Shown here: piece by piece, positions 3,685-52,200 of the stretch
Position numbering within the stretch: position 1 is the first letter of the stretch
Layout: each line of letters begins with the position of its first letter
Origin: Antedon mediterranea
Lineage: Eukaryota > Echinodermata > Crinoidea > Comatulida > Antedonidae
Assembly: GCF_964355755.1 (NCBI RefSeq)
Contig: NC_092678.1
Span: forward strand, 19,750,922-19,814,921
Length of the DNA: 64,000 nt
Direction of reading: 5' to 3'
The notes under the pieces: model-generated
Seen by the model: the letters and a program-made list of their open reading frames with translations, nothing else
Database searches by the model: none
What the model was told of the DNA's origin: nothing
Position numbers and translations under genes: made by a program

Positions 3685-3956
3685 GTAGATCCCTTATTCC
3701 ACTCAACATCTTTGTGGCTCTCCTCTGTACTTTTTATAATAATTCAATTCTTTATCTTAATTATAATGAATAATGAAGTTATGGAGATTAAAATAGGTAA
3801 CATTTGTCGTGAGCCTACCAGAATGCGAGCTTACAATGTTTATGTTTTTTTGAATAAAGCCTAGTTTTACTATACGCTGTTTGATGACGTGAAAAACATG
3901 TTTATGTGCGTTAGGCCTATTGTTACTGTGTCATTTAAAATCGTCGTGTATTAGTT

Positions 3957-6900
3957 TTAATAACGTGAATGTGCAACTGTCTGGTAAGGTCTAGTAAAGG
4001 TCACTATCATTGGTATTCCTTCGATTGCTACGTCACCCGTCACTCCCGGAGCTTTTTCAAATGTATAGTTCTGAATTAACCACGTAAAGATAAGGAAGAT
4101 CTGAGCCTTAGCTAATGCTTGTCCAACACACGCCCTCCGACCGGTGGAAAACGGCAGATAGCTCGGAAGATGTTGTTTGATAGTGCATGTCGAATCCAAG
4201 AATCTCTCTAAGAAAACACAGTACAGTAAGCAAAAGTAAGTATGCAAAATAATGAATTGTTAGTAGTTAGAAACAACATAAATGTCATTCAACGATGAGG
4301 CTAAGTTAAATTAACAACCAGTTTTAACAATAAAAATATTTCTTCTATTCAACGAATAATATGCCTATTTTTCCAGTCCAGATTGGTTGGCTAGGTCCAT
4401 GGAAAATGTATTTCTGTGTTACAATATGGCTATATTACTAGTTATAACAATATTACAGACAATAGCTCTCGTTTGTATTAAATTACCTGGTTTAAACTTT
4501 TCGGGAGAATCCCAGTATTTCGAGTCATTGTGAAGAGCCCAAGCATTTATGATTACTCCTGTGCCTGTAGTTACATTGTAATTGCCTGAAGGAAAATATG
4601 GTAGCATACATGCATAAACATTAACGTAATCTAACCATCTAGTATATCTATATAACTTTGATCCTGATCCCAGCTAAAAGGCAATGCCTGTGGTAGTGGC
4701 ATACAGTATATGCCTATCCATGAGCCTAACAGAGAGCAAGCAGAATTCAAGAGAGTCATGGTTCTTACCAATTGTGGAGTCTTTAATAGCACAGTGAATC
4801 AAGCTTAATGGGACAACTGTCCCGTATCTCATGATCTCCATGATCACAGCATCCGTGTATGGCAGCTTCTCACGATCACTTAGTTGTGGCGGCCTGTCTC
4901 CAATGACGTCATCAAGTTCTTTCTTTATCTTTTCCTGTACATCCGGATTATCAATCATGCATGCAACAGCCCACAGTAATGTTGATGTAGATGTTTCTGT
5001 ACCAGCTATAATTATAATAAAATGATTACTCATCCGACCAGTCTTCATCCTAGTAGGCCTGAAAATAGCAGTACATGCTAAAGTGAAAACATACCTATGA
5101 AAAGATCCGATACAATCTGTTTGATATGCACATCTGTTAATTTACTGTCCGAGTTATCAGTCTCCATTTCATCATTTTGAGTTTTCAAGAGTAGCTCAAT
5201 TAGGTCATTTGCAGGTTCATCTAAAATGAATGTGTAGCAGAATGATTACTAATATGAAATATTAATACATTGTTACAAAATATGAGTTCAGTTCAATTTG
5301 TAAAACCACGTGGTAACAAAAAATTTATTTTTTTAATAGTCATCGGAGGATACTGCGCATGCGCAGGCGGTTTTGTTCCACTTTGAGAACTCACCGAGAG
5401 AACTCACCGAAAATAATAGTATTTATTTCAATACCTGGAGAGTATGCTTTCAAATGCCGATTCACTTCCTTCAGAATTATAGCAAATAATTCCAGCGATA
5501 CTCTTCTAAATGTATTCACCGAAGTACTTGGTAGAAATCTAGCTGCTGGAATAAAGTCCGCTAGAGTACCGTTACCAAGTGCATTGTTTCGTTCATCTGA
5601 TATCTTTATAAACTCAAGAAGTTCAGGATCATTAAATTCATAACTAAAAAAGAGAAAAATATATAAATATACCACATAACATATAAATATCACTAATCAT
5701 AATCTATTTTTATTAATATATATAATTCATGAAATGTGTATACTGTATGTTGATATAAATTTTTGGCAGACCACCTACTTTTGTTTTGAAAAAGAACTGT
5801 TGAGTTCTCAACGTTCTTTCAATCAATACACTGTGATCGTCCTCATGAGTGAGAATACAGAAAATCTAGGAAACTGGGACATTTACAAGCTATATAAACA
5901 TACAGTAGGTACCTACAATGTGTGTATTAATTAATCGTATCCAATAGCGAGAGAACAAAAACTATAACTATACAGGATCCGGAGAGATAGAGAGCAACGC
6001 GTTAGAGTAGGGAGTAGGCATGATGTTTGCGATAAATACAATTTAGGCCTACCTTTTTCCAAAGCACATGGAAGCAATAACGTTGTAGACTGCCAAAGTA
6101 ATCACTTCTTTTGGATCAAATGGATTCCCAGCTTTTTCTGAAAGAACACCTCCAATTTTCCGTATTACCTCTCCTATTAAAGTCTCCAAATTATCCGTAG
6201 TATATTGTCTTAAAGGTAAAAGTGATAGAGTAACAAGAAACATCTAGACAAAATAAGAAAGATAGTGGGCAAAGGTGTCAAGGAACAAATTGCATCTAAA
6301 TTGGCAGGACCTGTACAAAAAGTGGTTTGCTCATCCCTGTCAAAAGGTATTTCGAAGCGTATTTGTATGAAAGTTGGTAACATTATAATATTAAAATTAA
6401 ATATACAATAAGTTAGCTTTATCGTGTCCGATGTGTGATAGTCTACATATTACGTAGGCTACTAACCTGATAGCTAAATGCGCTAACTTTCGGTGGAGTT
6501 TCCAGGTTGGTGAAGGCTGACCAAAAGCAATGTCCTTTCCATTTTCAGAATACCAGTTAACTATTAAAACGTACATTCGACATGTTTATAATGAATTTAT
6601 ACGTACGTACATTACGTCATCGTTTTTATAAATTAGTCATGTATAGCGCCATCACATTACAGAGTTGCATATGACTTACAATTGTACGAATAAGGACGTC
6701 CACTGAAATCATTAAGTTTGGTCAGTAAAGCCTCGTGCGCATGTTCGTGATCGTTGATGACGACTGTCCAAAAACTTCCAAACTTCACTGAAAAAACTTG
6801 CCCATACTTGAAGGTCATACTTTTAAAAATCGTCCAAGGTGATACATCTCCTATTAATACTATAACAAAATCATTGAAGGATTAGACACCAAAAGAATCG

Positions 6901-14200: not shown

Positions 14201-15524
14201 CTGAGAGTGCCAACTTGCGATGGGATTTCCAGATTGGTGTAGGCTGAGCAAATGCTATGTTCTGTCCGAAATCAGAAAACCAGTGAACTGTAATGAAAGT
14301 ATACACACGTGTTTAAAATATTGGTATAATTACTCGAATGCTAGAGATCGGTCAATTGTCGAAAATGAAATCGTATGCGTCGTGCTTTGTGCGAATTTGT
14401 TAAAATTAATTGTAAAATGATCTTTTTTGACAAATCATCACCTATAATTCGCAAAAGTGACGAATTAAATGCTAGTTCTATTTTAGTTCTTTTGGCTAGT
14501 TTGGTTGGTCTGTTCCTACAACTCGCATCAACAACGCTCTTTTGTTTTTATTCATTTTGTATTTCCAAGACTAAATATCCTAATGATACTATGTCTACTG
14601 ATCAGTTTAAAGTTTTAAAACAGAATACTGTAATTAAAGGCTGTGTTTCCATAACAAAATCATCTGTTATATTTTTAACCAATCAGACAATTATTTAAAA
14701 AATATGTGCATGTGAAGACATTAACGACAAGGTCATATACATGGCTGCAGCCGCGTGCGCAAATTTGAGTTAGTGTTTACCGACCGACTGACATCATAGT
14801 GAGCTAGAGTCGCGTTGCACGCAACTAAAAAATCAAATGCTCAATCATAACATACCGTAACGATTTGTCCTTCAGGCCAAAGATTAAAAAATATCGCATT
14901 CATCCGATAATTATTTTATTTGAATGAAATAGTTAATTTTTATCTCCAGCGGAATAGGTTAAACCTCTCCTTTCCTCAGGAACTTTGGTTAATTTGTATT
15001 GGTTAATTATCGGTTAATTTCTGGCTGTGAAAATAGAGCCTAAAAGAAACTATTTTTAAATAAACTATAAAAATTATGGTAAAATACACTTGGATGTACA
15101 GTATCGACTTACAGTTATAGGAATAAGGACGTCCACTAAAATCATTAAATCTGGTCAGTAAAGCCTCTTGCGCAAGTTCGAAATTGTTGATGACAACTGT
15201 CCAAAAACTTCCAAACTTTACTGAAAAAATTGGTCCATACTTGAAGGTCGTGTCCTTAAATATGTTCCATGGTGGTACCTCCCCAATTAATGCTATACGA
15301 AAACGATTGCAAAATTAGACATTAAAGAACATAATTATATTGTCTACAAATTCAATTGATCTATTTTAGCCTATAACTTGCTTACTTGGAACATTCCCTA
15401 TGATAGGGTAAGGCGTTGGACCAGGCGGCATTCCAGCTGGACGGCGAATGTTAAAATACATCCACGTAAGCAACAGGACGACCAGCACCACAGCTAGAGA
15501 TACCGTACTTGTACACTCGAACAT
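11285..15524 (-). CDS. Cytochrome P450, CYP2 clan (gene B), 9 exons, 497 aa
   Basis: Complete P450. Exons 1 to 9: 15386-15524, 15113-15292, 14194-14287, 13848-14003, 13056-13264, 12632-12760, 12121-12357, 11788-11886, 11285-11535; the sum is 1494 nt. The start is MFECT at 15524. It has an N-terminal anchor, a PPGPTPYP hinge, the I-helix AGTDTST at about 303, ExxR EIMR at 359-362, and [10 protein letters not shown] with Cys at about 441. Exon 6 is one codon longer than in the paralogs. The gene is mosaic: exons 3-9 resemble gene A (for example the tail [11 protein letters not shown]), while exons 1-2, intron 1 and the upstream DNA are close to gene C. Donor 4 is a less usual AAAAAA/GTAG junction. 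The substrate is unknown. Confidence 0.9.
12898..12992. mobile_element. Short MITE, family with CTCTGTCTACAC ends
   Basis: A 95-bp foldback sequence in intron 5 of gene B. It begins AAGCTCTGTCTACAC and ends GTGTAAACAGAGCTT, an inverted repeat. Related copies or fragments lie at about 34895, 43998, 57558 and 62645. Confidence 0.65.
14729..14832. repeat. Dispersed repeat, copy 1 (GTCGCGTTGCA family)
   Basis: About 104 bp in intron 2 of gene B, carrying CATATACATGGCTGCAG, ACCGACTGAC and AGAGTCGCGTTGCA. It matches 58884-58990 along nearly its whole length. Short GTCGCGT-type ends also occur on the insert at 40591-41359. It has no coding capacity. Confidence 0.6.
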
Positions 15525-16557
15525 CTACAAAAACCCAAACAAATAACAAAAGCATTCACTGTACAAACACTGCATGACAAAATGGACAAATGGTATAACA
15601 CTTGAGTGTCACTAAAACAGAATAGTTTACCTCATCAATACTATGTCTTTTATCATTAAGATTACTCTGTAAAGTATTGATCTATAAGTTTTGTTTGCCA
15701 AATAAAATTTGAGAAGTTATCTTACCTTAAAATGTCAAAGTACTCGCTGTATAAGTCAATGATTCAAAACATTAGAACAGCACCTAATATCGATCCTATG
15801 GCAGTTTAGTGTATGTGGTATATCTGGCAATATTTTTGTTGATGGCATTTATACAAACATATTTCATTGTCACGTGCAGATATAATATCAGTTAATGTTT
15901 GGCTTTCCTGGATCATGCGCATGCGCATAATTATAATTTAACCATAGATGTAATCTCTATATCTTAGTTGTCCAAATAAATGATAGGCCTTACAAATGAG
16001 TCTACTAACCTGAATCATGCGCACGCGCATATAATTGAAAACACAGATGTGCAGTCATATATTGACGTAACACAGTATTGTATATGCGTTTGCATAAGGC
16101 TACACTCCGTTGCAAGTATTTCAAAATACATTTTTTCCTGCTGACAAGAGAAGTAAAACAAATTAAAGAGATTAAATGGCTTTTATCAGAAGGCATCATG
16201 TCACAAAACTCAAACTTGTCTTGCCTTTTATTACTGTATTAACATTATATGTCAATGTTGCTGGTACTGTGATTATGCTTACTCTTTCTTGGTATGTCAA
16301 CTTGAACGGAACTAAACACTTAAATCTATTTATTCTGTTATATAGCATTATTTATACGTGCCTAATTTAAATAAAGGTGGTGACGTGTTAAGACACGCCT
16401 CAATGTTCTTTACAGAGCTTGGGGTAAATGATAGTATAGTCTGTTTAGCTAATTAATGAGCTGGCAGTTTGATTTCTTAGTATGGTTTAGTTTAATTCGT
16501 GCTTTGGGCGACACTGTCCTTTAAAAAAAAGTGTATTGTTGTTTATTTATATTAATG
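15525..16557. other. Intergenic region upstream of P450 gene B
   Basis: Most of 15525-16370 is collinear with 20099-21240, the DNA upstream of gene C, so both belong to one duplicated block. A single TCAGAAGGCATC unit sits at 16185-16200, where the other copy has a 20-unit array. Bases about 16480-16557 match the 3' flank of gene D at 23050-23128. No independent gene is seen. Confidence 0.65.
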
Positions 16558-16655
16558 GATGAGAAAGATCTCAGCTTTAGCCAATGCTTGTCCAACACAC
16601 ACTCTACGACCAGCTGAAAAGGGCAGAAAACTCGGAAGACGTTGTTTTACTGAGA
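16558..16655 (-). pseudogene. Broken P450 exon 9 remnant behind gene C
   Basis: Read on the minus strand this gives the heme-loop part of a P450 last exon ([16 protein letters not shown]). It lacks both the normal splice acceptor end and the C-terminal part. Its left side joins directly to a gene D-like 3' flank, as if about 120 bp of exon had been deleted. Its right side runs into a stretch that matches the 3' flank of gene H near 49020. Its GCTGAAAAGGGCAG wording is closest to gene F exon 9. It is not usable as an exon. Confidence 0.75.
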
Positions 16656-16877
16656 CATTACAATCATTTCATCATAAAACATCACAAACACCTAAATCCT
16701 AACTAAACAAACTATAAAATCGTAAATCTATACCTTAATTTTACACTGGTCTAATGTTAGAACATCTATAGGTTTATTTGTGGTTGGAAAAGATAAATAT
16801 AGTGAGAACTCTCTCTTCTTCTTCCTCTTCAAAAACCCTCTCGGGGACATCAAGCGAATATCTAAGCCTACTGATTA

Positions 16878-19800
16878 CTAATAGCGGGATGTTGCAACTG
16901 CTTTGTAGGGCTTAGTAAAGTTAAGACCCTGTGGTTTCCCACTAACTGCGAAAATATCCGTCACTCCAGGTGGCTTCTCGAATTTATAATTCTGAATTAA
17001 CCACGACAGTACGAGGAAGATCTGAGCCTTAGCTAATGCTTCTCCAACACACACTCTACGACCGGTGGAAAACGGAAGAAAACTTGGGAGACGCTGTTTT
17101 ACAGTGCATGTCGAATCCAAGAACCGCTCTGAGAAAAAAAAATAAGGCCTAGATAGCGTATTGATATAAAAGGAATGAACGTTTAGTAGAAGAATATACA
17201 AATATTTTCTGACAGCTGCTTAAATATCAAACATTGCCATGCATATACATTAATTCTGTTCACCATTCAGAATTGGATAACCAATTCACGAGTTTACTGT
17301 GTTGAATTGAAATATTGATTATTTGTATAACTGTACAGTTGAACTGAACGATATTAACAATGCCACGTGGTATGACATTGAATGACAATGATGAGACATG
17401 ATTGATAGTCTAATTGTCAATTTTCACCCTCTCATAAATAATTAGCATTTTTACCTGGTTTGAACTTTTCCGGCGAATCCCAGTATTTTGAATCATTGTG
17501 AAGTGCCCAAATATTTATGAAGACCCTAGTGTTTTCTGGCACCATGTAATTACCTTAAGAAAATATGGCACATATTGAAAGCGTTCAATTATTTTTAAAC
17601 TTAACCATCAAACTATCTATACTCTTAATTGATGATTTCAATATCAAAATTCAAGGACGTGATTGCTTACCAATTGTGGAGTCTTTAATAGCACAGTGAG
17701 GCAAGCCTAATGGGACAACTGTCCCGAATCTCATAGTCTCCATGATCACAGCCTCCGTATACGGCAACTTCCCACGATCACTTAGTTGTGGTGGCCTGTC
17801 TCCAATGACATCATCAAGTTCTTTCTTAATTTTCTCCTGAACATTCGGGTAGTCGATCATGCATGCAAAAGCCCAAAGTAACGATGTTGTTGATGTGTCT
17901 GTACCAGCTACAAGATTTGTAATCAAAATACAATAATTAACTTTAGTATACACACAACATTTATTTCACCATCAATGTAGACAAAGTCGAAAAGAAATAC
18001 TATAATTTCCACACAAACTTATGTGATGGCACTAGTAACAATCCGTTATGCGTGATTAAATACGAATGCAAAAACAGGCATAAATAGGAAGAAAGGATTC
18101 ATTACGAGTACGGGTTATAAACAAGTGTAAAATTGCATGTTGCATATATTTTGTGGTGATGGCCGTTGTCATTACCTACGTAGGCTACCAACCAATGAAT
18201 CTACATCCATAAATGAAACAAAAAAAAAACAATTTTAAAACATACCAATAAATATATCAGATACAATCTGTTTGATATGCACGTCGGTTAATTTACTGGC
18301 AGAACTATCTGTCTCCAGTTCATCTTTCTGAGTTTTTAATAGAAGCTCAATCAAGTCATTTGTAGGTTCATCTAGAAATGAATAACGAATTATCAATTTA
18401 ACCTATTATCATTGGTCTGAGTTAGTAATGGTATCTGAAGATACGCATGTGTGTGTTGCCTACTTTTAGTTTTATAATCGACGATCGTGTTCATCAAGAT
18501 AAAGATAATTATATTTGATACCTGGAGAGTATGTTTTCAAATGTTGATTCACTTCTGCCAAGATCATAGATAGGAATTCTTTTGTCGCTTTTTGGAATCT
18601 GTTCACTTGTTTACTTGGTAAAAATCGAGCAGCTGGAATAAAGTCAGCTAGGGTGCCGTTGCCAATTGAACAATTTATTTCTTCGGATAACTTAATAAAC
18701 CGAAGAAGCTGAGGGTCCTTAAAGTTGTAACTAACAGAAAATGTAAATATATAGGAAGAATTAAGAAATCATATGTTATTTCCTATATTAAATTTGATTA
18801 ATTAATAGTCATAATATAGCCTATTTGCATAATGTTTTAACTTTGTCTTAACTTACTCATGTCCGAAGCACATAGAAGCAATGATGTTGTAGACTGCCAA
18901 TGTGATCACTTCCTTTGGATCAAATGGTGTCCCAGCTTTGTCAGCAAAGACATCTCTAACTTTCGGTATTACCTCTTCTACCAAAGTCTCCAAATCTCCT
19001 GTTGCATATTTTCTGTAAGTAGGATTGTGTAAACAAAAGAGCAGGTATAATCGTGAGACGCCCGGATTAGGAGAGGTAGATTGTTATGCAAGCTAGAATG
19101 TTGATTGTTGAGAAAATGGACTATAACGAACGACAACCACCAATAATATGGTATTTGATCCCGCTCACAAATGTTGCACAAATCCGTATGGTATTATACG
19201 CCATTTTGATAATGTTTGTTTCTGATTATTGTTTTACATACACATGACTAACCTAATAGCTGAATGCGCTAACTTTCGGTGGAATTTCCAGGTTGGTGTA
19301 GGCTGAGCAAAAGCAATGTCCTTTCCATTATCAGTGAACCATTCGACTATAATAAAAACATTTTAATAGTAACGAATTACCAGACTGTATAAAGATTACT
19401 CCAATATTATAGGAATATTTGCAGGTAACCCAACATGTGTTTCACATGTATCTTCAAGTAACTAATGTCATAACCTGTACACATTTACATAAAGTAAAGG
19501 TGGTAGTCAGACTTGCATCAACATGCATTTCAGTCATTAGCAACTCTAACTATTGTTTTACAACTTTAACAATGCTCTATTTGTTTGTAAGAAGACCTGC
19601 TTAAATTATTTTTTTGTTCTGTCATATCTGAAGCCGAAATTATTAAATCATGAAATTAGAAATTTTGACCTAAAGACCACTTACAATTATACGAATAAGG
19701 ACGTCCACTAAAATCATTAAATTTGGTCAGTAAAGCCTCTTGCGTAAATTCGTGGTTGTTGATGACAACTGTCCAAAAACTTCCAAACTTTACTGAAAAA

Positions 19801-20098
19801 ATTGGTCCATATTTGAAGGCCATATCCCTAAATATGTTCCATGGTGGTACCTCTCCTATTAATGCTATAAGAAAACGATTGCAAAATTAGACATTATTTA
19901 AGAATATAATTATATGGTCTACAAATTCAATCGAACTATTTTAGCCTGTACTTGCTTACTTGGAACATTTCCTATGATAGGGTAAGGCGTTGGACCAGGC
20001 GGCATTCCAGATGGACGGCGAATGTTAAAATACATCCACGTAAGCAACAGGACGACCAGCACCACAGCTAGAGACACCGTACTTGTACACTCGAACAT
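16878..20098 (-). CDS. Cytochrome P450, CYP2 clan (gene C), 9 exons, 496 aa
   Basis: Complete P450. Exons 1 to 9: 19960-20098, 19685-19864, 19253-19346, 18857-19012, 18522-18730, 18246-18371, 17671-17907, 17455-17553, 16878-17128; the sum is 1491 nt. The start is MFECT at 20098. Motifs are the I-helix AGTDTST at about 302, ExxR ETMR at 358-361, PERF across exons 8/9, and [10 protein letters not shown] with Cys at about 440. It is the most compact gene apart from D and E. The gene is mosaic: exons 1-2 are B-like, exons 4-8 and the first part of exon 9 are D-like, and the C-terminus (DIFAVSGKPQGLNF) with the 3' flank is H-like. Substrate unknown. Confidence 0.9.
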
Positions 20099-23000
20099 CT
20101 ACAAAAACCCAAACAAATAACAAAAACATCCACTGTACAAACACTACATGATAAAATGGACAAATGGTATAAAACTTGAGTGTTACTAAAACAGACAACT
20201 TCACCTCATCAATACTATGGCTTTTATCATTAAGATTACTCAGTAAAGTATTGTGATCTATAAGATTTGTAAAAAGTTATCTTACCTTATAATGTCAAAG
20301 TGCTCGCTGTGTAGTCAATGATTCAAAACATTAGAACAGCACCTAATATCGATCCTTTGGCAGTTTAGTGTATATGGTAAATCTGGCAATATTCTTGTTG
20401 ATTGATGGCCTTTGTACAAACATAGTTCATTGTCATGTGCAGATATAATATTCGTTATCAGTTAATGTTTGGCTTCCCTGGATCATGAGCATGCGCACAT
20501 AATTTAAACATAGATGTGCAGTCATATAGTGTAAGCTCTATATCTTAGTTGTCCAAATAAATAAGTGTGATAGGCCTTACAAAGCAGGTCTACTAACCTG
20601 AATCATGCGCACGCAACGCAACATAGATGAGCAGTCATATTGACGTAATACAGACATACTGTAAGGCTACATTGTTGCAAGTGAGGTATTTTAAAATACA
20701 TTTTTTCCTGCTGACAAGGGAAGTAAATCAAATTAAAGAAATTAAATGGCTTTTGTCAGAAGGCATCTTGTCAGAAGGCATCATGTCAGAAGGCATCATG
20801 TCAGAAGGCATCATGTCAGAAGGCATCATGTCAGAAGGCATCATGTCAGAAGGCATCATGTCAGAAGGCATCATGTCAGAAGGCATCATGTCAGAAGGCA
20901 TCTTCTCAGAAGGCATCATGTCAGAAGGCATCTTGTCAGAAGGCATCATGTCAGAAGGCATCTTGTCAGAAGGCATCTTGTCAGAAGGCATCATGTCAGA
21001 AGGCATCATGTCAGAAGGCATCATGTCAGAAGGCATCTTGTCAGAAGGCATCATGTCACAAAACTCAAACTTGTTTTGCCTTTTATTACTGTGGTGACAT
21101 TTATATGTTAATGTTGCTGGTACTGTAATTATGCTTACTCTTCCCTTGTCTGTCAACATCAACGGTAAACACTTAAACCCATTTATTCTGTTACAGAGCA
21201 TTATACTGCTACGTGCCTAATTTAAATAAATGTGGTGACGTGTATGACATGATTCAATGGTCTTCGTGACAGAGCATATAGCTCGACGGTGCTGTAGCTT
21301 GGGCCGGGGAAAAGGTAGTATACTCCGTTGAGCTAATGAATGATTTGGCCAAAGAGCTTTACAGTTTGATTTATTAGTCACGGACCCAGGGGTGTTGCCC
21401 TAGTTGCCCGGGCAACACCCAATTAATTTCATACTAAATGTTGATTCTGCCACTAAATTAAAATTGAGTCCCATTTTATTGTATATAATATCCATCCGGA
21501 CCCGGAACTTGATAGGCTTCGTCAAAAGTAGTTGCAGGGCATGTTATGGTAAAAGAAGTAATTTGCCAGCGCCAACCCTTCACAAAATTTTCTTTGTAAC
21601 AAAACTTATTTTAAATGGAACGCTACAAAAATACTAATCCTCCGCTTTACCACTGCATAAATACCTAATAACCAGACCAGAACGTATCTTTTTTACGTTT
21701 TACTATCAATCCATTTTCATATATCACGCAATCTATTTTTCATGAATATAGTATTTTGATTAAATAGTGAGGGATTAGTTACAGTGTTGACTTTGAATAT
21801 ACCATTGTAAACCAAAATGAACTTGAATTGATCAAACAAAATTATTCAATCAGAGAAACGCTCTACTGCACATGAGAAATGTTGGTCGATAAACTTCTGA
21901 CGACGACTAAAACAACGACAATCAGCTAAATGTATTCGTGATTTGATGTCATCTCTGCTTGCTACATTATTATGACACTACCGGACTTTCCCCTCCTCTC
22001 GCAATGAACGGCAGTAGGCCTACAGATCTTCCCTTTGTAGGCTCGTGTATGTAGCCTACTACGTCATTCACAAATTACCCACGCATAGCAGTTTTACTAG
22101 CATCATCACAGATTACCTCTCATGGATCAAGAATTCATAAATAAATTCAAAAATTTATCGACAAACGAAATATAACCTATATTCATTCCTACATTTATTC
22201 CTTTTAAACATTAGGCATATAGCCAAGGCTATTAATCGATTTGTTCATAATTATTGCGTTTGCCGGGGGTTTTCCATAATCTAAGACCAATTTTTAGGCC
22301 AAATCATAATTGTGCGAATGTTTTTGTATTTCCGATTCGTGTAGTACCCCCTATTTATCTTCACTTCCATACGTCCGTAAATATTAGGCCGAATTTCCGT
22401 AGTAATTTACGGACGTTCCGAAATTTGAACCGTGTTATACCGGTAGCAGAGCAAATTTTGCTTCTTTCTGCAAATGTCCTATCATTAATTTCTTTGTTTT
22501 ATTTTGGAGTGTGGTTTAAAACAACACTTTTGTAAAGTTATAGTGGATAAATAAAAATTAATTTTTGGAAATTGTGGTTTAAAAATCTGACTTTATTTAG
22601 CATTTAATTCAAAAAAATACAATTTAACGTTTTGCTCAATATTTATAGCAACAGCTTCATATTTTTTGTACAACTTTTTAAAATTATTAATTGATAATTA
22701 ATTTACATTGATTGAGTACAGTTATTAGAATGTATTACCGTACCAAAAGTACCTTCATCGGGGAATTCCCCGTAACGTTCGCATTGAACTAAAAAAAAAT
22801 GTTATCCTATATTGTTAGTCGCGTATGTTTTATTACCGGCGGAATAATATAGGCTACAATCATTTGTTTGCTAGCGCACTATAGAGTGAGTGACATTTCC
22901 GGCGAACTAGGGGGTGCAATTTATCATGAATTTTACGTGCGATAGTACCATTTGCGGCCATCTAGGGGTATCATTTAACAATTTGCTTGCTCAAATACTC

Positions 23001-23122
23001 AGTCAGTCTTTGGGCAAACCTCTTAAAATAGTTCTGCGCGACCGCCCCTGAGTGTGGTTTATTTTAATTCTTGCTTTGGGCGACAATGTGCTTTAAAAAA
23101 TGGTTATTGTAGTTTATTTATA
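20099..23122. other. Intergenic region between P450 genes C and D
   Basis: The left part (20099-21240) duplicates the upstream DNA of gene B and contains the 15-bp minisatellite. A short palindrome of GGGTGTTGCC and GGCAACACCC lies at about 21389-21418. A second hairpin, with stem ACGTCCGTAAAT, lies at about 22370-22412. Bases 23050-23122 are gene D 3' flank shared with gene C. No supported coding exon is seen. Confidence 0.6.
20755..21056. repeat. 15-bp minisatellite, about 20 units
   Basis: Tandem units of TCAGAAGGCATCATG, with some TTG or TTC variants in the last three bases, are repeated about 20 times without length change. Because 15 is a multiple of three and the unit lacks stops, long repetitive reading frames appear on both strands; I read these as artefacts. 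The paralogous position at 16185-16200 has one unit, so the array arose after that duplication. Confidence 0.9.
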
Positions 23123-26100
23123 TTAATAACGAGAATGTGCAACTGTCTGATATGATTTAATAAAGTTAATCTGCTGAGGTCTTCCAGCAATTGCTACGTC
23201 ACCGGTCACTCCGGGGGCTTTCTCAAATTTATAATTCTGAATTAACCAGGTAAAGATGAGAAAGATCTGAGCCTTAGCTAATGCTTCCCCGACACACCCT
23301 CTACGACCGGTGGAAAACGGCAGAAAACTTGGGAGACGCTGTTTTACAGTGCATGTCGAATCCAAGAATCGCTCTAAGAAAAAAAAAGTAATACAGTATT
23401 AGGCCTTTTTGATAATTTTTTTTAATTAAAGGAATGGAAGTTTATGAGATGAATATACGAAGATTTTATGAAAGCTGCCAAAACAGTAAATATTTTCATT
23501 CACGGTGGCGGATCTTGGATTTTGAATTAGTGTGGGTGGGGATGGCCTGAAAACTAAAAAAGGCAAATTTTAGGTGCTGAAATGAAATGAGTGTTCTATC
23601 TTATGCATTGCGATTTAAAAAATGTAGGCGAAATTGACAAAAATGAGTTGACTGTCTTGAATTAACCTATTGGTTATTTATATATCTTTAAAGTTGAAAA
23701 TGTTGAATGAAAATGATTTATAGCCTAATTGTCTATTTTCTCCTCTCATAGGCTAGATAATTATCATTTTTACCTGGTTTGAACTTTTCCGGCGAATCCC
23801 AGTATTTTGAATCATTGTGAAGTGCCCAAGTATTTATGAAGACCCACGTGTTTTCTGGCACCTTGTAATTGCCTTAAGAAAATATGACACACACATAATT
23901 ATTAATGGCAATCAAACAAACCGATGTCAAATGATTTTTAAACTTAACCATACTATATACTCTTAATTGATGATTTAAATATCAAAATTCAAGGACGTGG
24001 ATGCTTACCAATTGTGCTGTCTTTAATAGCACAGTGGGGCAAGCTTAATGGGACAACTGTCCCGAATCTCATAGTCTCCATGATCACAGCCTCCGTGTAC
24101 GGTAGCTTCCCGCGATCACCTAATTGTGGTGGCCTCTCTCCAATGACGTCACCAAGTTCTTTTTTAATTTTCTCCTGAACATCCGGGTAGTCGATCATGC
24201 ATGCAACAGCCCAAAGTAGTGATGATGTTGATGTGTCTGTACCAGCTACAAGATTTGTAATCAAAATACAATAATTAACTTTAGTATACATACAAACTTT
24301 ATTACACCATCAAAGGGGAAAAAGAATCTTATAATTTCCACATAAACTATGTGATGGCACTAGTAACAATCCGTTATGCGTGATTAAATACTAATGCAAA
24401 ACATGCATAAATAGGAAGAAAGGATTCATTACGAGTACGGGTTGCAGACTGCATGTTGAATATATTATGTGGTGATGGCCGTTGCCACTACATACCTATC
24501 AACCAATGTATCTACATCCATAAATGAAACAAAAAAACAATTCTAAAACATACCAATAAATAGATCAGAAACAATCTGTTTGATATGCACGTCGGTTAAT
24601 TTGCTGGCAGAACTATCTGTCTCTAGTTCATCTTTCTGAGTTTTTAATAGAAGTTCTATCACGTCATTTGCAGGTTCATCTAGAATAAAATTATCAATCT
24701 AACCTGTTATCATTGGTCTGAGTTAGCAATTGTATCTGAAGATACACATGCGTGTGTTCATGGTCTTATAATCGACGACCATTGTGTTCATAAAGATAAC
24801 GATAATTCTTTCAATACCTGTAGAGTATGTTTTCAAATGTTGATTCACTTCTGTCAAGATCATAGCTAGGAATTCTTTTGTCGCGTTTTGAAATATGTTC
24901 ACTTGTTTACTTGGTAAAAATCGAGCAGCTGGAATAAAGTCAGCTAGGGTGCCGTTACCAAACGATCCATTTATTTCTTCGGATAACTTGATAAACCGAA
25001 GAAGATGAGGGTCCTTAAAGTTGTAACTAACAGAAAATGTAAATATAGAAATAAGAATTCAGATGTTATTTCCTATATTAAATTTGATTAAATAATAGTC
25101 ATAATAGCCTATTTGCATAATATTTTAACTTTGTCTTAACTTACTCATGTCCAAAACACATAGAAGCAATGATGTTGTAGACTGCTAGTGTGATCACTTC
25201 CTTTGGATCAAAAGGTGTCCCAGCTTTGTCAGCAAAGACATCTCTAACTTTCGGTATTACCTCTTGTACCAAAGTCTCCAAATCTCCTGTAGCATATTTT
25301 CTGTAAGTAGGAATGTTTAAAAATAATCGTGAGACACCCGGATTAGAAGAGGTAGATTGGTAGGCGAGGTAGAATGATAAGTGTTGAGAAAATGGACTAT
25401 AACAAAAGACAACCACAAATAATGTGATGTTTGATCCTGTTTCACAAATGTTGCACATATGCCATTTGATAATGTTTGTTTCACTAACCTAATAGCCGAA
25501 TGCGCTAACTTGCGATGGAATTTCCAGGTTGGTGTGGGCTGAGCAAAAGCAATGTCCTTTCCATTATCAGTGAACCATTCAACTATAATAAAAGCCTTTT
25601 AACTTTAATAGTACCCAATTATCAGTAGAATATTTGCAGGTAATGCAACATCGCATGTGCTCCACATGTAGGCCTATCGTCTATAACCTACAAACCCTTT
25701 ACACAACCTTACATAATAGGCAACACGTGTGAAACACGTGACATGTGTTATTTTTAAATATTTCTATGATAAAATATTGTAGCCTTTGCAGATAAAACAC
25801 TTAGAATTGTGTACTGTAATTTTAAAGTAAAGGTGGTAGTCAGACTTGCATTAAAAAGCATTTCAGTCATTAGCAACTCTAACTTTAATTGTATGTAAGA
25901 GACCCGCTTATCTGAAGCATAAGTTAATAATTTAGACCTGAAAAGACCACTTACAATTATACGAATAAGGACGTCCACTAAAGTCATTAAATTTGGTCAG
26001 TAAAGCCTCTTGCGTAAGTTCGTGGTTGTTGATGACAACTGTCCAAAAACTTCCAAATTTAACGGAAAAAATTGGTCCATACTTGAAGGTCATATCTCTA

Positions 26101-26457: not shown

Positions 26458-27936
26458 CCTAGAAGAAAAATAAATAGCCTACTATCTAAACATTCATACA
26501 TAAATAAAAATAGTATAATCGTGTATAATCTGTTTTACATCAGGAAATTAATGAACATTTTTAGAAACTATTGCTGAATAAAATATTATTGAAACCATAA
26601 CTTGTTCTCTTAAACATTAAAATCACTTTATTATCTCGACGACAATAAACAAACATGTATACATCACTTGCTCTATCAAATGAATGCATTTGTGTAGGCT
26701 ATGTCTACCCACTTTTTAGCAAATCATCATCATTGTAGGCCTATTATTGAATTTGTTGTTATCACTAAACTGTGGGTTAAGGTTGGCAAAGCGTATACAA
26801 CTATTTTAGGGGAAAAAGGTGGCGCGATGATGACGTGGGAGAGTTGCAATATGTCTATTCCAGTAGGCCTAAGCCTGAACTGTAAGCTCCGTAAAGGACC
26901 GTGTTTCGGTGTAGTAGTTTGGTAATGAATAGACATATTACAAGCGTTCACATTATTTGAACAATCTTATTTACTGCAGTATCCAACATACGTAATCCAA
27001 ATTAGGATTTATGTCCTGCCACTGTACTGGACCCGTGCTTAATTTAAACCAGTTTGAACTTACCAACGAACCCCGAACTATGCATTGAGTCACTTATACA
27101 TACAAGGCAATCATGGTTACCTACAATAAACCAATTTAGTAACCAGGCAACATGCATGCTTATGTGAATTACATGTTCGATTTAATTTTAGCAAAATACA
27201 TTCGAGGATTTACGTTACCTTGTAATTCAAAGTTTTACTGGTATAAACTTTACGACCTCTGTGTATGCTCATGCAGTACCGTAATATATGCAGTCGACTT
27301 TACAATAATGCCAATTTTGTTTTTATCAATACCGTCCTTTGATATTATCAGAATATACAAATACACGTATTTGTCACTGACACAGGTCAATGATAATTTT
27401 ATTTGGCAAGTCTGTGAACAAAACATTGTGGAGGCACTTAATAGACTATATATTGACATACTCCATTTAAACATTGTGTCATAACAGTCGAGACACGTTT
27501 TACCTTAAGCCAATTTAACACTACTTGAATGTATTAGCATTATTATGCATTTGTGGGTTAAACGTTCGGTCTACGTTTATTGTTCTGAAAGAAAACTCAT
27601 TAAGGGAACTTTTTGTTTAGTAAAATTTATTTATGTGTTAGAAAATGTCGTAGAAAAATAGTATAAAAATAATAAATGCGAAACAAAAAATTTTTATTTG
27701 ACCAGAAAGTCTCTAAATTCGAGCATTTAACTTGACAGTGTGTCGTATTTAGAATTTGAAAAGTATTTTTGAAAGTGTTCAATTCAATTCAACTTTATTT
27801 AACCACGGAGGACCAGATCGACACATGGTTGTTCTTCTCTGGGGCCGTGCACAAAAAAAAAATACAAATACAAATTCAACAAACAATGTTGAAACAGTCA
27901 CGGGTTTGCAGGCCATCTAGAACAGTTCATTATAGT
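26458..27936. other. Intergenic region between P450 genes D and E
   Basis: No coding exon is supported. A hairpin with stem AATATGTCTATT spans about 26848-26941. A stretch near 27205-27300 (GAGGATTTACGTTACCTTG onward) resembles 32272-32390, which is at a similar distance upstream of gene E, so the 5' flanks of D and E share ancestry. A repeat tail rich in CAATTCAATTCAACTTTATT lies at 27780-27875. Confidence 0.55.
27780..27875. repeat. Possible retroelement 3' fragment
   Basis: The segment CAATTCAATTCAACTTTATT, then an ACCACGGAGGACCAGATCG-type stretch and a homopolymer A run, has the look of a dispersed retroelement tail. No second full copy is in the window, so the assignment is weak. Confidence 0.3.
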
Positions 27937-30900
27937 TTATGATCTCGGATGTGCAACTGTCTGATAGGGCCTAGGAACGTTAAGCTGCTGAGGCTTCCCG
28001 GAGATTGCTGTGTCACCGGTCACTCCCGGAGCTTTCTCAAATGTATAGTTTTGAATTAACCAAGTAAAGATAAGGAAGATCTGAGCTTTGGCTAATACTT
28101 GTCCGACACACCCTCTACGACCGGTTGAAAATGGCAGAAAACTTGGGAAACGTTGTTTTACAGTGCATGTTGAATCCATGAATCGCTCTAAGAAAAAAAA
28201 AGGAATATTAGGCCTAGATAACTTAAAATGGACGTTTATGAGTTGAATATACGAATATTTTCTGAAAGATGCTTAAATATTTGTATTCATAGTGGCGGCC
28301 TAAAAATGCAAATTGTATGTGCCGAACTGAAATTAGTGCTGTGTCTTTTGCATTTACTATTTACAAAATTTAGGCGAAATTGACAAAAATGAGTTGACTG
28401 TGTTGAATTGAACTATTGATTATTCGTATAACATTAACGTTGAATAGAACGATATTAGCAATGCCCCGTGATATGAAATTGAATGACAATGATGATACAT
28501 GATTGATAACCTAATTGTGAATTTTTCCCCCGTTATACATAATTATCATTTTACCTGGCTTGAACTTTTCCGGTGAATCCCAGTATTTTGAATCATTGTG
28601 AAGTGCCCAAGTATTTATGAATACCCACGTGCTTTCTGGCACCTTGTAATTTCCTTAAGAAAATATGCCACATAATTATAGAAATCAAAACACATAGGCG
28701 TCAAATGATTTTTAAACTTAACCATCAAACTATCTATACTCTTAATTGATTGTTTAAATATCAAAAATCAAGGACGTGGGGTGTTTACCAATTGTGGAGT
28801 CTTTAATAGCACAGTGGGGCAAGCTTAATGGGAAAACTGTCCCAAATCTCATAGTCTCCATTATCACAGCCTCCGTATACAGTAACTTCCCACGATCACT
28901 TAGCCGTGGCGGCCTGTCTCCAATGACGTCATCGAGTTCCTTCTTTATTTTCTCCTGTACATCCGGGTTGTCAATCATGTATGCAACAGCCCAAAGTAAC
29001 GATGCTGTCGATGTTTCTATACCAGCTACAAGAATCAAATTACAAAAATCAACATAACGTAAATGTAGACAAAGGGGACAAATAATCTTTTCACATAAAC
29101 TTATGTGATGGCACTAGTTACAATCCGTTATGCGTGATTAAATACTAATGAATGACGTAATGCATAAATAGGAAAATGATTTGTTATGGTCGTTGCCGTT
29201 ACCTACCAACCATTTACTTTAATGTACTGTATTAAAACATACCGATAAATAGATCGGATACAATCTGTTTGATATGCACGTCGGTTAATTTGCTGGCAGA
29301 ACTATCTGTCTCCAGTTCATCTTTCTGAGTTTTTAAAAGAAGCTCAATCACGTCATTAGCAGGTTCATCTTAAAATGAATAACGAATTGTAAATCTAAGT
29401 TGAGTTAGCAATACTATGTGGATACGCATGTGAGTATTGTCATGGTAATCTAACAACAGGACGACGCTGAGGTCACCTTGCCAAGACTCGATCATAATAG
29501 TCCTTTGATCTTATGTCTGGTTGCGACAAATACAAACAGTACTGTACTAAATGTACATATTTTCCGCGGCGCGGTTTCTGTAATCAAACATTTGGGGAAG
29601 CCAATTGGCCAATCAAAAAAAAAAATAGTCTTATAATCGACGGTCGTGTTTCTCAAGAAAACGAAAATTGTTTCCATACCTGGAGAATATGTTTTCAAAT
29701 GTTCATTCACTTCTGTCAAGATCATAGCTAGGAATTCTCTTGACGCTTTTTGAAATATGTTCACTCGTTTACTTGGTAAAAACCGAGCAGCTGGAATAAA
29801 GTCAGCTAGGGCGCCGTTACCAAATGCAGCATTCATTTCTTCGGATAACTTGATAAACCGAAGAAGCCGAGGGTCCTTAAAGTTGTAACTAACAGAAAAT
29901 GTAAATATATGAAGAATTAAGAAATCAGATGTTTTTTCCTATATCAAATTTGATTAAATGATAGTCGTTATAGCCTATTTGCTTAATATGTTAACATTGT
30001 CTTAACTTACTCATGTCCAAAGCACATAGAAGCAATAATGTTGTAGATTGCTAGTGTGATCACTTCCTTTGGATCAAATGGTGTCCCAGCTTTGTCAGCA
30101 AAGACATCTCTAACTTTCGGTATTACCTCTTCTACCAAAGTCTCCAAATCTCCTGTAGCATATTTTCTGTAAAGTAGGAGTGTGTAAACAAAAGCGCAGC
30201 TTTGGGCGCGAGACGCAGTTGATATGGGAGATAGACTGTTGGGTGTTGAAAAAGGACTATATAACAAACGGCAACCAATAACAAACATATCCGTATGTCA
30301 TTATACGCCATTTAATAATGTTTGTTTTACTTACCTAATAGCTGAATTCGCTAACTTTCGGTGGAATTTCCAGGTTGGAGTAGGCTGAGCAAAAACAATG
30401 TCCTTTCCATTATCAGTGAACCATTTAACTATAATGAAAATATTTTTACTTTAATAGTGCTCGATTATCAGAGTACTGTATATAGAGTACTCCAATGTCA
30501 TAGGAAGGCCTATTTGGTAATATAACATCACATTTGTTTCATGAATATTCTACTATGCCTTAACCTAACATGATAAAAAACACCACATTTGAGACAAACA
30601 TGCTTTATTACCAAATGTTGCTATGGTACTGGGAAAATATTGTAGTATGTGGAGATATAACACATTTTATTTCACCTTGGCGATGAAGACTTGACAAATG
30701 AGCTAATTTATTCATCTACGTAATAACTGCTAATTTAAATAAAGTACAGGTGCGCTAACAATTATTTCATTCATTGCAACTCTAACTATTCCTTTACAAC
30801 TTTAACAATGCTCTATTTGTAGATAAGGAGATCCGCTTCCATTATTTTTGTCCTGTCATATCTGAAGCATAAATCATGCATGCATGAAATTAGAAATTTA

Positions 30901-33183: not shown

Positions 33184-36100
33184 TTATCTCGGATGTGCAA
33201 CTGTCTGATAGGGCCTAGGAACGTTAAGCTGCTGAGGCTTCCCGGAGATTGCTATGTCACCGTTAACTCCCGGAGCTTTCTCAAATGTATAGTTCTGAAT
33301 TAACCACGTAAAGACGAGGAAGATCTCAGCCTTAGCTAATGCTTGTCCAACACACACTCTACGGCCGGCTGAAAAGGGCAGAAAACTCGGAAGACGTTGT
33401 TTTACCGAGCCATTGGTATCTAAGAATCGCTCTAAAAAAACAAAAAGACTTGAAATTTATCTTGTTTATTATCTTTTAGGTCTCTTTGTATTTTTAAGCG
33501 TTTCAGTACTGTATATTGCTTAGTTTTGTTTATTTGTTTTACACTCATCACAGCGCAGCTTTTTTACCTGGTTTGAACTTTTCCGGCGAATCCCAGTATT
33601 TTGAATCATTGTGAAGTGCCCAAGTATTTATGAATACCCACGTGCTTTCTGGCACCATGTAATTGCCTGAAAGAATACGGACAGGGGACATTTCGTTCAA
33701 TTTTGGGTTTTCTTGTAGAGATTGTATTAATTAATATGTGGACAAAGAAGGTAGATATTTGTTCTATCTATTATAAAATAATATTATTAACAATAATAAA
33801 ATCAGACTGATTAATGTACGTAGGCCCAACTGTGCCATGGTTAAGTATGATAGCGGCCTCGTCCAGAAACTCTTAAATAGGGTGCGAGAAATTCAAGGTG
33901 GTATTTACCAATTGTAGAGTCTTTAACAGCACAACGAGTCAAGCCTAAAGGTGCAACGGTTCCAAATCTCATAGTCTCCATGATCACAGCCTCAGTATAT
34001 GGCAGCTTCCCACGATCGTTCAGTCGTGCTGGCCTATCTCCAATGACGTCATCGAGTTCCCTTTTAATGTTTCCCTGTACATCCGGGTTGTCGATCACGC
34101 ATGCGACAGCCCAAAGTAACGCGGCTGTTGTTGTGTCTGTACCAGCTACAGAAAATGTAGATTAAATACAAATTAATAATGTTTAGATACAAATTATAAC
34201 TTCTACAAAATGGAAATGGAATCCCATCACTTTTACTGTCTTTTTAAAAGCTGTAGTTACTCTACGTTATCCAAGATTTTCTTTAGATTTTAAATTCAAA
34301 CTGAACAAAATAATTAAATTCCGGCATATTCCCTCTGGTGGTTTGTTCCTCTAACCAATAAGCGACTTCGATAACTCCAAAGGGCGCGATATTGAAATAG
34401 TCAATCTTGACTTTTTTTTGTCACGATTAAATATGGCACCCTCTGGAGTTATCGAAGTCGCTTATAATAATCACATAGATATCACATATATCACATTGTC
34501 ATTTAAGATCGTGAAGATATATCATTGTAGGCCTATAATAATTTCACATTGCTTTACAGGTAGTACCAACGGGAAACAATATACCAAAGAAAATGTCCGA
34601 TGCAATCTGTTTGATATGCACATCTGTTAATTTACTTGCTGAGCTATCTGTTTCCATTTCATCTTTCTGAGTTTTTAAAAGTAGCTCAATCAGGTCATTT
34701 GCTGGTTCATCTATAATGAAAATAAATAACTAATACAATGAGATGTTTATTAAGTGTCACAAAGAAAGGTAAGAGCTATTGGCCTATTTTTGTTGGTGCC
34801 CCCAGTCACTATATAAACTAAAATACAAATTCCATGATCTCAAAGATCCATTATGCGATTATAGATAAATATTATTGTTTAATGGTATGTGCCTTTTTTA
34901 AGCTCTGTTTACACTATCAAATCTTTATGTGATGTGCCTATATATGGACATGATGATGTCACTTTAGAACCATTAATGTGTATTGTTAGTGGACAAATAA
35001 TTATGTTTATGTTTTCTAACGGTAGCCATGTGTAGGCCTACCCGTGTTGCCAAATCCCTTCTAAAATTCTAGAAAATCGTAGAATGTATTTATATACTAC
35101 TGTGTAATCTCTAAGCATGCGCAGAATGGAAGTGGAGCTGTAGCTTGGTAGTCATGCTCGCCTTCCAACCCAAAGGTCCAATGTTTAATCATGACCTAGT
35201 GCATTGTAACTCACGACTCTCAATTCCACTCCCTAAGCCTCCAATGAGACTTGATAAGCGTGATAAATAACAAAAATAGTATATCCACATTGTAATTGGC
35301 GAGTTACCCGGTGTTGGATGCGTATAAAATAAAAAATAAATAAAATAAAATTTACTGGTAGACCTACTTGAATAAGATAATAATTTCAATACCTGGAGAG
35401 TACGTTTTTAGATGCTGATTCACTTCCGTCAAAATCATAGTTAAGAATTCTGTTCCTGCTTTTTTAAGTCGGTTTACTTGTGGACTTGGTAAAAATCGAG
35501 CCGCTGGCACAAAGTCAGCTAGGGTGCCGTTACCAAATTCATCATTTATTTCTTCTAATAACTTTACAAATCGAAGAAGTTGAGGATCTTTAAAATTATA
35601 ACTAAAAAATGTAACATTTAAGTAGAATTAGAATGATGTGTTCTTCCGGTCATACAGCAGAAAACTAGACGATGGAGGATGGGTTATCTCCGGTTTTGTC
35701 TAGCACACACGTAGGCCTACCTCACCAACTAAAATGACTGTTTTACGGTGGAATAAATTCACAAATTGCGTATGCATCAGATGTAGGCCTGACCACCTCA
35801 CCACCTAAAATGACCGTTTGTAGGCTGATGCTTTATTATGGCGGTATGAATTCACATGACATTCACATGACTTGGAATAAAATGCAAACAGCCTATATGT
35901 ATATCTTTGCCCAAGCAAAATCTTTCTTAACTTACTCATGTCCAAAGCACATAGAAGCAACAACGTTGTAGACTGCCAATGTGATCACTTCCTTTGGATT
36001 GAATGGTGTCCCAGCTTTTTGTGAAAGAACATCTCTAATTTTTGGTCTCACCTCTTCTATCAAAGTCTCCAAATCTCCTGTAGCATATTTTCTGGAGGTT

Positions 36101-38224: not shown

Positions 38225-38583
38225 AAGCTTGGTTCCCACTTGGGCGCAAAGCGAAGTGGAACCGACGATGCAATAGTGCTGCAAACATCGCAGGTTTGAT
38301 TTCACGCAGGCGGGGGCAAACACAAATTATAAAGCGTGGTTCCCACTAGCGACGCAACACAAGGACGTAACGCAACGCAAGTGAATTGACCAATCACAAG
38401 CGATGGCTTATTCGCTTGTGATTGCTAACTGTCTATAACTTCGCTTGTCATTGGTTAAAACGCTTGCGTTGCGTTTACGTACGTCCTTGCGTTACGTTCT
38501 AGTGGGAACCAATCTTTAGAAGGGCATTTTCTTACGTTGCGTAGATTGCGTTACGTTGCGTCGCTAGTGGGAACCAAGCTTTA
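38225..38583. mobile_element. Nested inverted-repeat MITE (GCTTGGTTCCCACTAG family)
   Basis: The outer ends AAGCTTGGTTCCCACT (38225) and AGTGGGAACCAAGCTT (about 38566) are inverted repeats. A second pair, GTGGTTCCCACTAGCGACGC (about 38335) and CTAGTGGGAACCAATC (about 38500), lies inside, so one copy appears inserted within or fused to another. The interior is rich in CGCAACGCAAGGACGTAACG on one arm and its complement on the other. Other copies: 45301-45464 and 52711-52898. Confidence 0.75.
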
Positions 38584-49000: not shown

Positions 49001-49236
49001 TGACGTCATCAAAAACTGTATCATTTCATCATAAAACATCATAAAACATCACAAACACCTAAATCATAACTAAACAAACTTTAATATCGTAAAAACCATA
49101 CATTTATTTTAGACTCGTCTAATGTTAGAACATCTATAGGCTTAATTGTGAGTGGAAACGATAGAAATATAGTGCGAACTGTCTCATCTTTTTCCTCTCG
49201 GGGACATCAAGCGAATATCTTGGCCTAAATTGATTA
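46065..49236. other. Intergenic region between P450 genes G and H
   Basis: No coding exon is supported. It contains a 19-bp tandem repeat (TCTTACCTAATTTATTGG, 46520-46562), a SINE-like fragment at 47415-47480, and two copies of a segment beginning GGGGCAAATCGT (47898-47965 and 48513-48580). Bases 49020-49236 are 3' flank of gene H, duplicated behind gene C. Confidence 0.55.
47415..47480. repeat. SINE-like fragment
   Basis: An ATAACATAATAACA run, then TTTTATAGCGCACATACCAC and GTGCTCAAGGCGC; this is the same head as 31856-31935. Confidence 0.5.
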
Positions 49237-52200
49237 CTAATAGCGGGATGTTGCAACTGCCTTGTAGGGCTTAGTAAAGTTAAGACCCTGTGGATTCCCG
49301 CTAACTGCGAAAATATCCGTCACACCTGGTGGCTTCTCGAATTTATAATTCTGAATTAACCACGACAGGACGAGGAAGATCTCAGCCTTAGCTAATGCTT
49401 CTCCAACACACACTCTACGACCGGTGGAAAACGGCAGAAAACTCGGGAGACGCTGTTTTACCGAGTCTGAATCCAAGAATCGCTCTAAAAAAGAAAATTA
49501 TTTGAGTATATGAGATTTAGCAGCGGATGTTTTAAGTAAACCGTAGGCCTACAAAATATTGCATACGCCTAAACGAATAAGTCTCAATGACTCTATGGTG
49601 TACGAAGGTTTTTACCTGGTGAAAACTTTTCTGGAGAATCCCAGTATTCTGGGTCGTTGTGAAGTGCCCAAGAATTTATGAAAACCCACGTGTTCTCTGG
49701 TACTTCGAAATTCCCTATAACAAAATGACGCATGCTGTTAGACCCTATAATCGACATTTGTACTGGCCCATCTCGCTCTCCCGGCTGTCGCTGTGGACAG
49801 ACGAATGAGCACCGGCAAGTTGTACGATACGAAGGGAACATTAAGGGAGAAGAAAGTTGTTGAATGTGTCGTGCACACCTGTGCGCAATTAAGTTGGCCC
49901 AGTAGACTGTGAATCGCAAGTTATTGCGCACATTTACATTTTATGAGTTCTTACCAATTGTTGAGTCCTTTATAGCACGGTGGGTTACGCCTATTGGAGC
50001 AACCGTTCCGTACCTCATAATCTCCATAATCGTAGCCTCCGTATATGGTAACTTCCCACGATCACTTAGACTTGATGGCCTGTCCCCAATGACTTCATCA
50101 AGTTCTTTTTTAATTTTCTTCTGTACATCCGGGTTATCCATCAAGCAGGCGATACCCCAAAGTAAGGTTGACGTCGTTGTGTCTGTACCAGCTTATAAAA
50201 TAATTGAAATTCGAATACAAAACAGGTTTAGAGATGAAAATATGCCGCTGCTGGGCAATTCAAGCCTCGCGCGTTGGTAACACGCGTGAAATATTCGTGC
50301 AGCACGGCGAAGCGTAATTTGTTTAATAAAACATCAAGCAGCAAACTTGTAGCCACTACTAAATTGTAGGTCTCGAATTTACACCCAGAAAAAATGCATG
50401 CGATAGGCCTACCGGTTATTGTAACGGTACGCCGCCACGCCAAGTCCATTATTGAAAGTGTTCCGTAGTCACTCTTTAGTAACTTTCACTTCCATACACA
50501 ATCCACAAACATTACGTATGATAAAACAGGTGGATAAAAGGCCTACTTAGAAATATTGTGTTTTATTTATTGAAAGTACAGTGTAGGCCTAAGACAAACC
50601 AATCGGTCAGCCAGACAGGAGTTCAACATCACTTACCACTAAAAAGATCCGATAAAATTTGCTTTATATGCACGTCGGTTAGTTTATTTTCTGAGCCTTC
50701 CGTTTCTTTTTCATCTCTCTGGGCATGTAGAAGCAGCTCAATCATGTCCTTCGCAGGTTCGTCTAAAACGACAATAGGCCCCAGTTATTTATACATGATC
50801 ACCACCGCAGACAAAGTAATGATTGAATGTGATGAAGCTAGGCCTGTAGTATTTCATAAGATGGATGGATGGTAGGCAGGCGATCGCCAAAAGAAACACA
50901 GTAACTGAACATATCGACGACGGCTGTATTCCGTGAACGTTATGATTACATCAGTACCCGACGGATCTACGAAACATCGTGCCAAGAAGCATACCAAAAA
51001 TTAACAATTAGCATACTAATGAAGTTAACCCAGGTGCGGTACACGTTGACACCTGTGTAATTCGATGAATAAGTGGGTTGGGGAGGAGGGGGAGGGGGAG
51101 AAAGGGAAACACTATGGCCAGCCAACACTTATTCAAGGACACGCCTAATAAAACACCTGGTTTTACAGGGTTCTACTTCATTAAAATGACACTGTACCTA
51201 ACAAAGTGTCCATTCCAATTAATAAGGTGTATTTTGAATAGGAATTTGTCAGTGTTGAAACATTATTTCTCCTTATTCTTTTATATCGAAAGTGTCTTCT
51301 TAACAGAGGGGTCACATGAATAGAAGTGCCCCCACCCCCCTCATACAAAAGACTGTATACATTTACCTGGAGAATATTCTTTCAAATGCTGACTAACGTC
51401 TTTCATAAGGATATCAAAGAATTCATTTGTAAGCTTCTTTATTTTGTTCACTTGTGGACTTGGTAAAAATCGAGCCGCTGGAACAAAGTCAGACAGGGTG
51501 CCATTCGCAAACACTTCATTTATATCTTCTGATATCTGAACAAATTTTTTAAGTCGGGGGTCGTTCAATTGGTAACTAAAAAAGTGACAACCAATGTATA
51601 TTAATATTTTCATCACAAAATCCACAAATTCATTTTTAATCTGATGTCAAGAGCTAGGGCTTAAAAAGAAGGCGGCACTCAGATGTTATCTGCGGAGCAG
51701 AATAATTATAGACGGCACACTGAGTTTGGTTTGGATTCATTTAGCGCCCTCAAGTTAACGTATTTTGGAGAAGAAAAAAAATCTGCGTATTTTGGATCGA
51801 TGTTCATCAACCCGACTCTATTAGTTCATCATCTTAAATGAACTTGCCAACGTCACGTGATAACATTAATGAAATGACAAAACGTTAAATGTTATCTGGT
51901 AACTAGTTTGGGTTCCAGACGGAGTTTGACTTGATATTAGTATAAAGATAAATATTTTGGCACATTCATACTTATACTATTTGAGCTTCAAACTCAGGTT
52001 CAGACAAACATCAAAAAGCCTCGAAATAACTACAGACTTGGGGCAAGTCTAGCTGATAACTTACTTATGTCCAAAACACATAGAAGCAATGATGTTGTAA
52101 ACTGCCAATGTGATCACTTCCTTTGGATCAAAAGGTGTACCAGCTTTATCAGCAAAGACATCTCTAAGTTTTGGTGTTATGTCTGCTAACAAAGTCTCCA

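Follow-up and report, generated by a model that had tools for sequence, protein, structure and literature searches.

The question raised by this locus is how the last exon of one P450 gene, gene C, came to resemble that of a paralogue 32 kb away, and what the broken copy of the same exon lying immediately beyond it represents. We analysed a window of 64,000 nucleotides (contig positions 19750922-19814921, part of a 354-Mb genome in 18 contigs). Coordinates below are positions in this window, and the genes and gene parts described all lie on the minus strand.

Gene C in a tandem P450 array

Protein exon queries identified eight P450 genes, A to H, in the window, all on the minus strand, and two further P450 genes (Y and Z) just to the left of it, so that the array comprises at least ten tandem genes; the exon queries gave the order around the exchange as H, G, F, E, D, C. 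Assembled exon by exon, gene C is intact. Its coding region runs from ATG to stop over 16878..20098 in nine exons (20098-19960, 19864-19685, 19346-19253, 19012-18857, 18730-18522, 18371-18246, 17907-17671, 17553-17455 and 17128-16878), its introns are all GT-AG and its 496-aa open frame has no internal stops. The predicted protein matches PF00067 and contains AGTDTS at the helix I motif (AGxDT), ETMR (ExxR), KPERF (PERF) and the heme-binding FxxGxRxCxG. Among PDB sequences, its top relatives are zebrafish CYP17A1 and then other CYP17, CYP1 and CYP2 enzymes, with CYP17A1, CYP1A1 and CYP2D6 among the best matches. By these motifs and matches, gene C is a P450 gene of a broadly CYP17/CYP1/CYP2-like kind.

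A regional tree of exons 1-8 separates a group of C, D and E (support 100/99) from a group of G and H (100/100). The B-C and C-D spacers resemble each other. Upstream of C lies a 15-bp tandem repeat (20754-21058; 20 copies, 96% alike) that is absent from the otherwise similar region upstream of B.

A switch of sequence type within exon 9

The initial annotation had claimed that the 3′ half of C exon 9 and about 200 bp of 3′ flank match gene H. We recovered this match and found it to be longer than claimed: BLAST aligned 16670-17144 with 49037-49500 at 87.5%, and by eye the likeness continues across a 10-bp repeat difference to a GAT at 16665-16663 in C and 49022-49020 in H. The source-type sequence, H exon 9 3′ part with its 3′ flank, occupies 49020..49412; exon 9 and the 3′ flank of D, the type of C's sister, occupy 23048..23374. 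At sites that distinguish D from H, exons 1-8 of C carry 190 D and 34 H bases, and columns 1-45 of exon 9 carry 6 D and 0 H, which marks the 5′ part of the exon (17086..17128) as D-type. Columns 77-252 carry 42 H and 4 D, marking the 3′ part with the stop codon (16878..17053) as H-type. The maximum chi-square for this switch was 112.5, compared with a shuffled maximum of 24.6 (0 of 20,000 shuffles above), and the best split falls in exon 9 columns 45-77 (17053..17085), which code for the core of the heme-binding motif. The switch cannot be placed more finely, because columns 46-76 hold no site at which D and H differ. About the last 70% of C exon 9 is H-type and the first 45-76 bp are D-type; the H tract may be patchy, because it contains four D-like sites, of which the one at column 106 is close to the switch.

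Trees of the two regions conflict, with a sharp breakpoint between them, as is seen in ectopic recombination between paralogues. From exon 9 column 77 onwards, C joins G and H with support of 99/98; the support for C and H as exact sisters in this part is only 69-90, so that the strong clade is C+G+H. A C+D+E clade is rejected here at a cost of 86 log units (p 1e-54). For exons 1-8, C+H is rejected (p 0.002) and C+G+H weakly rejected (p 0.04). C and H are 96% identical in the exon 9 end versus 79% in exons 1-8, and their 3′ flanks can be aligned over 200 bp, whereas most other flanks in the array cannot be aligned at all. Shared ancestry alone cannot explain this combination of a 96% to 79% contrast and alignable flanks.

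We then considered which gene was the recipient. The H locus retains its own exon 9 and flank, a copy of the donor type. A genome search with 16480-17150, in which weak matches can be missed, detected the H-type flank in no genes other than C and H, and hence no better donor than H. The reverse direction, in which the C exon 9 is ancestral and H the recipient, was examined using the other genes of the array as outgroups: G, the sister of H in exons 1-8 (100), joins C and H in the exon 9 3′ part (99), and D and E do not. The presence of the H type in G as well places its origin on the G/H side, which makes C the recipient. Conversion of D and E, rather than of C, was rejected because C and H are so much closer in the exon end than in exons 1-8 and have an alignable 3′ flank in common. 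The proposal that C received its last exon from an H-type copy therefore holds for the recipient and for the type of the donor, but not for the whole exon, the first 45-76 bp of which are D-type.

These results suggest, with good confidence, that gene C is an intact hybrid formed by ectopic recombination inside the tandem array. The mosaic is read from one assembly of one individual, and tandem arrays are prone to misassembly. However, a misassembly that copied H is unlikely since it would leave near-identical copies, yet the flanks differ by 10%; the exon tract and the broken exon have also diverged from their sources, by 4% and 8-10%, the window contains no N and the resulting gene is intact. 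We consider an assembly artefact very improbable as the origin of the mosaic; a wrong join between true sequences is possible.

Through the exchange, C acquired new sequence for roughly its last 58 codons. The suggestion that it covers the C-terminal substrate-site region was borne out: in D the C-terminal loop reads VAIAGRPQQINF, whereas in both C and H it reads FAVSG[K/N]PQGLNF. The residues GL (in KPQGLNF) of C align to VV of zebrafish CYP17A1, where D has QI; the human equivalents, V482 and V483, line the active site, and the exchanged codons include the loop that is the sixth substrate-recognition site in CYP2-type enzymes. The hybrid enzyme would keep its fold and heme site and would differ in the C-terminal substrate-recognition loop and the 3′ UTR, and exchange of the loop may change its substrate range. 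Differences between C and H in the exon 9 tract fall mostly at third codon positions (6/7, p 0.007). This bias, beside a non-coding flank that has diverged by 10%, suggests that exon 9 has stayed under selection since the exchange.

The broken exon and the history of the 3′ end

Downstream of the stop codon, about 215 bp of H-type flank (16663..16877, with AATAAA at 16778) are 89.6% identical to 49020-49236. This flank ends at the GAT (16663..16665) that it has in common with the broken exon 9, the join therefore showing a 3-bp overlap. The broken exon (16558..16665) is an exon 9 5′ part that starts at the fifth codon, has no normal acceptor and lacks about 127 bp at its 3′ end relative to D. 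It runs into a D-like flank that begins within the position of D's last sense codon; this flank (16476..16556) is 88-89% identical to 23048-23127 and is the expected original 3′ end of C. The truncated exon 9 and D-like 3′ flank that the initial annotation had placed beyond the H tract are thus both present, and alignment of the whole region put the breakpoints at 17085-17053 for the switch, 16663/49020 for the end of the H-type flank and 16665-16558 for the broken exon, followed by D-like flank. As an incomplete stray exon near a P450 gene, 16665-16558 has the make-up of a P450 detritus exon and would be a dead remnant. Apart from it and the exons of the eight genes A-H, exon queries detected no P450 exon copy in the window. 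If the cryptic in-frame CTCAG that immediately precedes 16652 were used, the product would have a short ending made up of the heme motif followed by a stop; an AATAAA lies at 16547.

The broken exon is F-type. It is 92% identical over 102 bp to a part of F exon 9 (33313..33414), differs from F by 8-10% overall, forms a clade with F (99/92) and has in common with F bases that are unique among the genes at columns 20, 21, 57 and 64. The data reject placing the broken exon in a clade with C (p 5e-6), D (p 0.002) or C/D/E (p 0.0015), and more weakly in one with H (p 0.03). This assignment is made over 108 bp, and the fragment may itself be an F/D join, as its last two informative sites (columns 114 and 118) are D-like. 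Differences between the fragment and F are mostly at third codon positions (7/11, p 0.04), a hint that it may have diverged while still coding rather than as a dead copy. We also rejected the idea that the fragment arose by duplication of exon 9 of C itself, since the two are 79% alike and their clade is among those rejected.

On these assignments, the 3′ end of C is a four-piece mosaic of D, H, F and D type. The first join is homologous and mid-exon, the second has the 3-bp GAT overlap and the third involves internal loss. This is not a simple gene conversion tract, in which the recipient sequence would resume at the equivalent position; after the H tract come the start of an F-type exon 9 and then a D-type flank. 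Homologous pairing in the exon 9 core may have started the exchange, and a non-homologous join may have resolved it.

The history first put forward for this structure was that a deletion broke C's old exon 9, that H-type sequence replaced it and that the fragment is the displaced old exon. The H-type donor and the D-like old flank, which occupies the place expected for the original 3′ end of C, agree with this account, as do the D-like last bases of the fragment. However, the fragment falls with F (99/92), and grouping it with C, D or E is rejected (p 0.0015 or less); it could be the old exon only if C's old exon 9 first turned F-type and its D-type 5′ part was restored later, a history we regard as unlikely. 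In addition, exon 9 columns 13 to about 76 are doubled at the C locus with different ancestries, so that deleting the old end and inserting H sequence is not enough and a third sequence type is needed.

Two other histories supply this third type. In one, repair or replication changed template several times within one event, moving from C to H, on to F and then back to C, and copied roughly 390 bp from H and 100 bp from F. The short tracts and the 3-bp H/F overlap are explained by one such event, which we consider a serious candidate though somewhat short of an even chance; the third-position bias of the fragment-F differences, with its hint of divergence while coding, speaks against it. In the other, C and H underwent unequal crossing-over in exon 9, so that the genes between them were duplicated downstream of the hybrid; subsequent deletions then removed almost all of these copies, sparing only part of an F copy's exon 9 and C's old 3′ flank. 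In favour of this, the first join is homologous, the pieces follow one another (H-type, then F-type, then C/D-type) as the genes do in the array (H, G, F, E, D, C), and the D-like sites at columns 114 and 118 are what an F/C join would give. Several extra genes would nevertheless have to be gained and then lost, and the B-C spacer contains no other stray exons; we hold this reading to be possible, but tentatively. The 3′ end of C may thus have arisen either by one template-switching repair event or by unequal crossing-over followed by deletions. Both the single-event and the multi-event history fit the data; the order of the pieces along the array suits either, and divergence does not discriminate between them (C-H flank, 89.6%; fragment flank-D, 88.6%; C-D introns 3 and 7, 79-85%). 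C-D intron 8 aligns poorly (59%).

Known P450 exchanges and other mosaics in the array

Tandem P450 paralogues are well known to undergo ectopic exchange, and C/H is a clear but ordinary case whose unusual detail is the three-source mosaic. Human CYP2D6*36 and other CYP2D6 alleles carry an exon 9 derived from CYP2D7 (PMC6238304, PMC8979107). As in gene C, exon 9 of a tandem P450 gene has been converted to that of a neighbouring paralogue, but in the human alleles the sequence came from a pseudogene and the hybrid has been reported to have decreased function or to be nonfunctional, whereas the frame of the gene C hybrid is intact; the gene C event is also old (10% flank divergence) and has a third sequence type beyond the tract. 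CYP21A1P/CYP21A2 chimaeras are likewise hybrids of tandem P450 genes, formed by conversion or unequal crossing-over (for example, PMC3161346); they differ from gene C in joining a gene and a pseudogene in a larger duplicated module and in being disease alleles. Exchange between paired P450 genes is also known from the CYP6B paralogues of Helicoverpa zea, where gene conversion is described as 5′-polar (PMC7830528), unlike the 3′-end exchange in gene C. Stray exons scattered through P450 clusters are recognised as a class of their own, detritus exons (PMC4964396); the broken exon of gene C differs in that it may itself be mosaic and abuts the donor tract. Gene C leaves the understanding of P450 cluster evolution unchanged. 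It provides a well-bounded natural case in which a gene gained a paralogue's C-terminal substrate-site loop and 3′ UTR and kept its reading frame, with the scar still readable.

Other genes of the array show comparable patchiness. The 3′ part of E exon 9 with the first ~50-100 bp of 3′ flank (27887-28204) is F-like (F 33132-33448), at 96% versus 84% in exons 1-8. The breakpoint that fits E best also falls in this region of exon 9, somewhere from column 84 to column 120 according to the parents chosen, and E and F show a similar, second exchange in the same exon 9 block as C/H. Exons 1-2 of B and more than 1 kb upstream (15107-16410) are C-like (98%, 92% and 86%), and B exons 5, 8 and 9 are nearest or similar to A. 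H exon 4 (52057-52226) is C/D/E-like, 88% like C and D, and H exons 2, 5 and 6 are only 73-76% identical to their nearest relatives. Read in this way, the array is broadly mosaic, and because C, E, B and H each look mosaic, whole-gene trees of it will mislead. A more speculative reading, which we think rather improbable, is that the exon 9 heme-binding core is a recurrent swap point through which otherwise diverged P450s (C and H, E and F) trade the loop and 3′ UTR as one cassette and so give rise to new enzymes; the fragment might even be spliced in now and then as an alternative last exon.

An isolated exon 9 of A-like type, together with neighbouring intron 8 sequence, is 82% identical to A (3924-4497) and lies on another chromosome (L017:1897-2525, near G000:C1:34085508); its reading frame is apparently damaged. 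An inverted pair of ~195 bp, 92% alike (38326-38518 and 52711-52902), is possibly a mobile element. The plus strand carries a 289-aa open frame at 55655-56524, which reads to us like a phospholipase C X-domain protein but matched nothing in Pfam at 0.001 or in PDB. A 46-bp tandem repeat of 27 copies, 92% alike, occupies 59361-60625.
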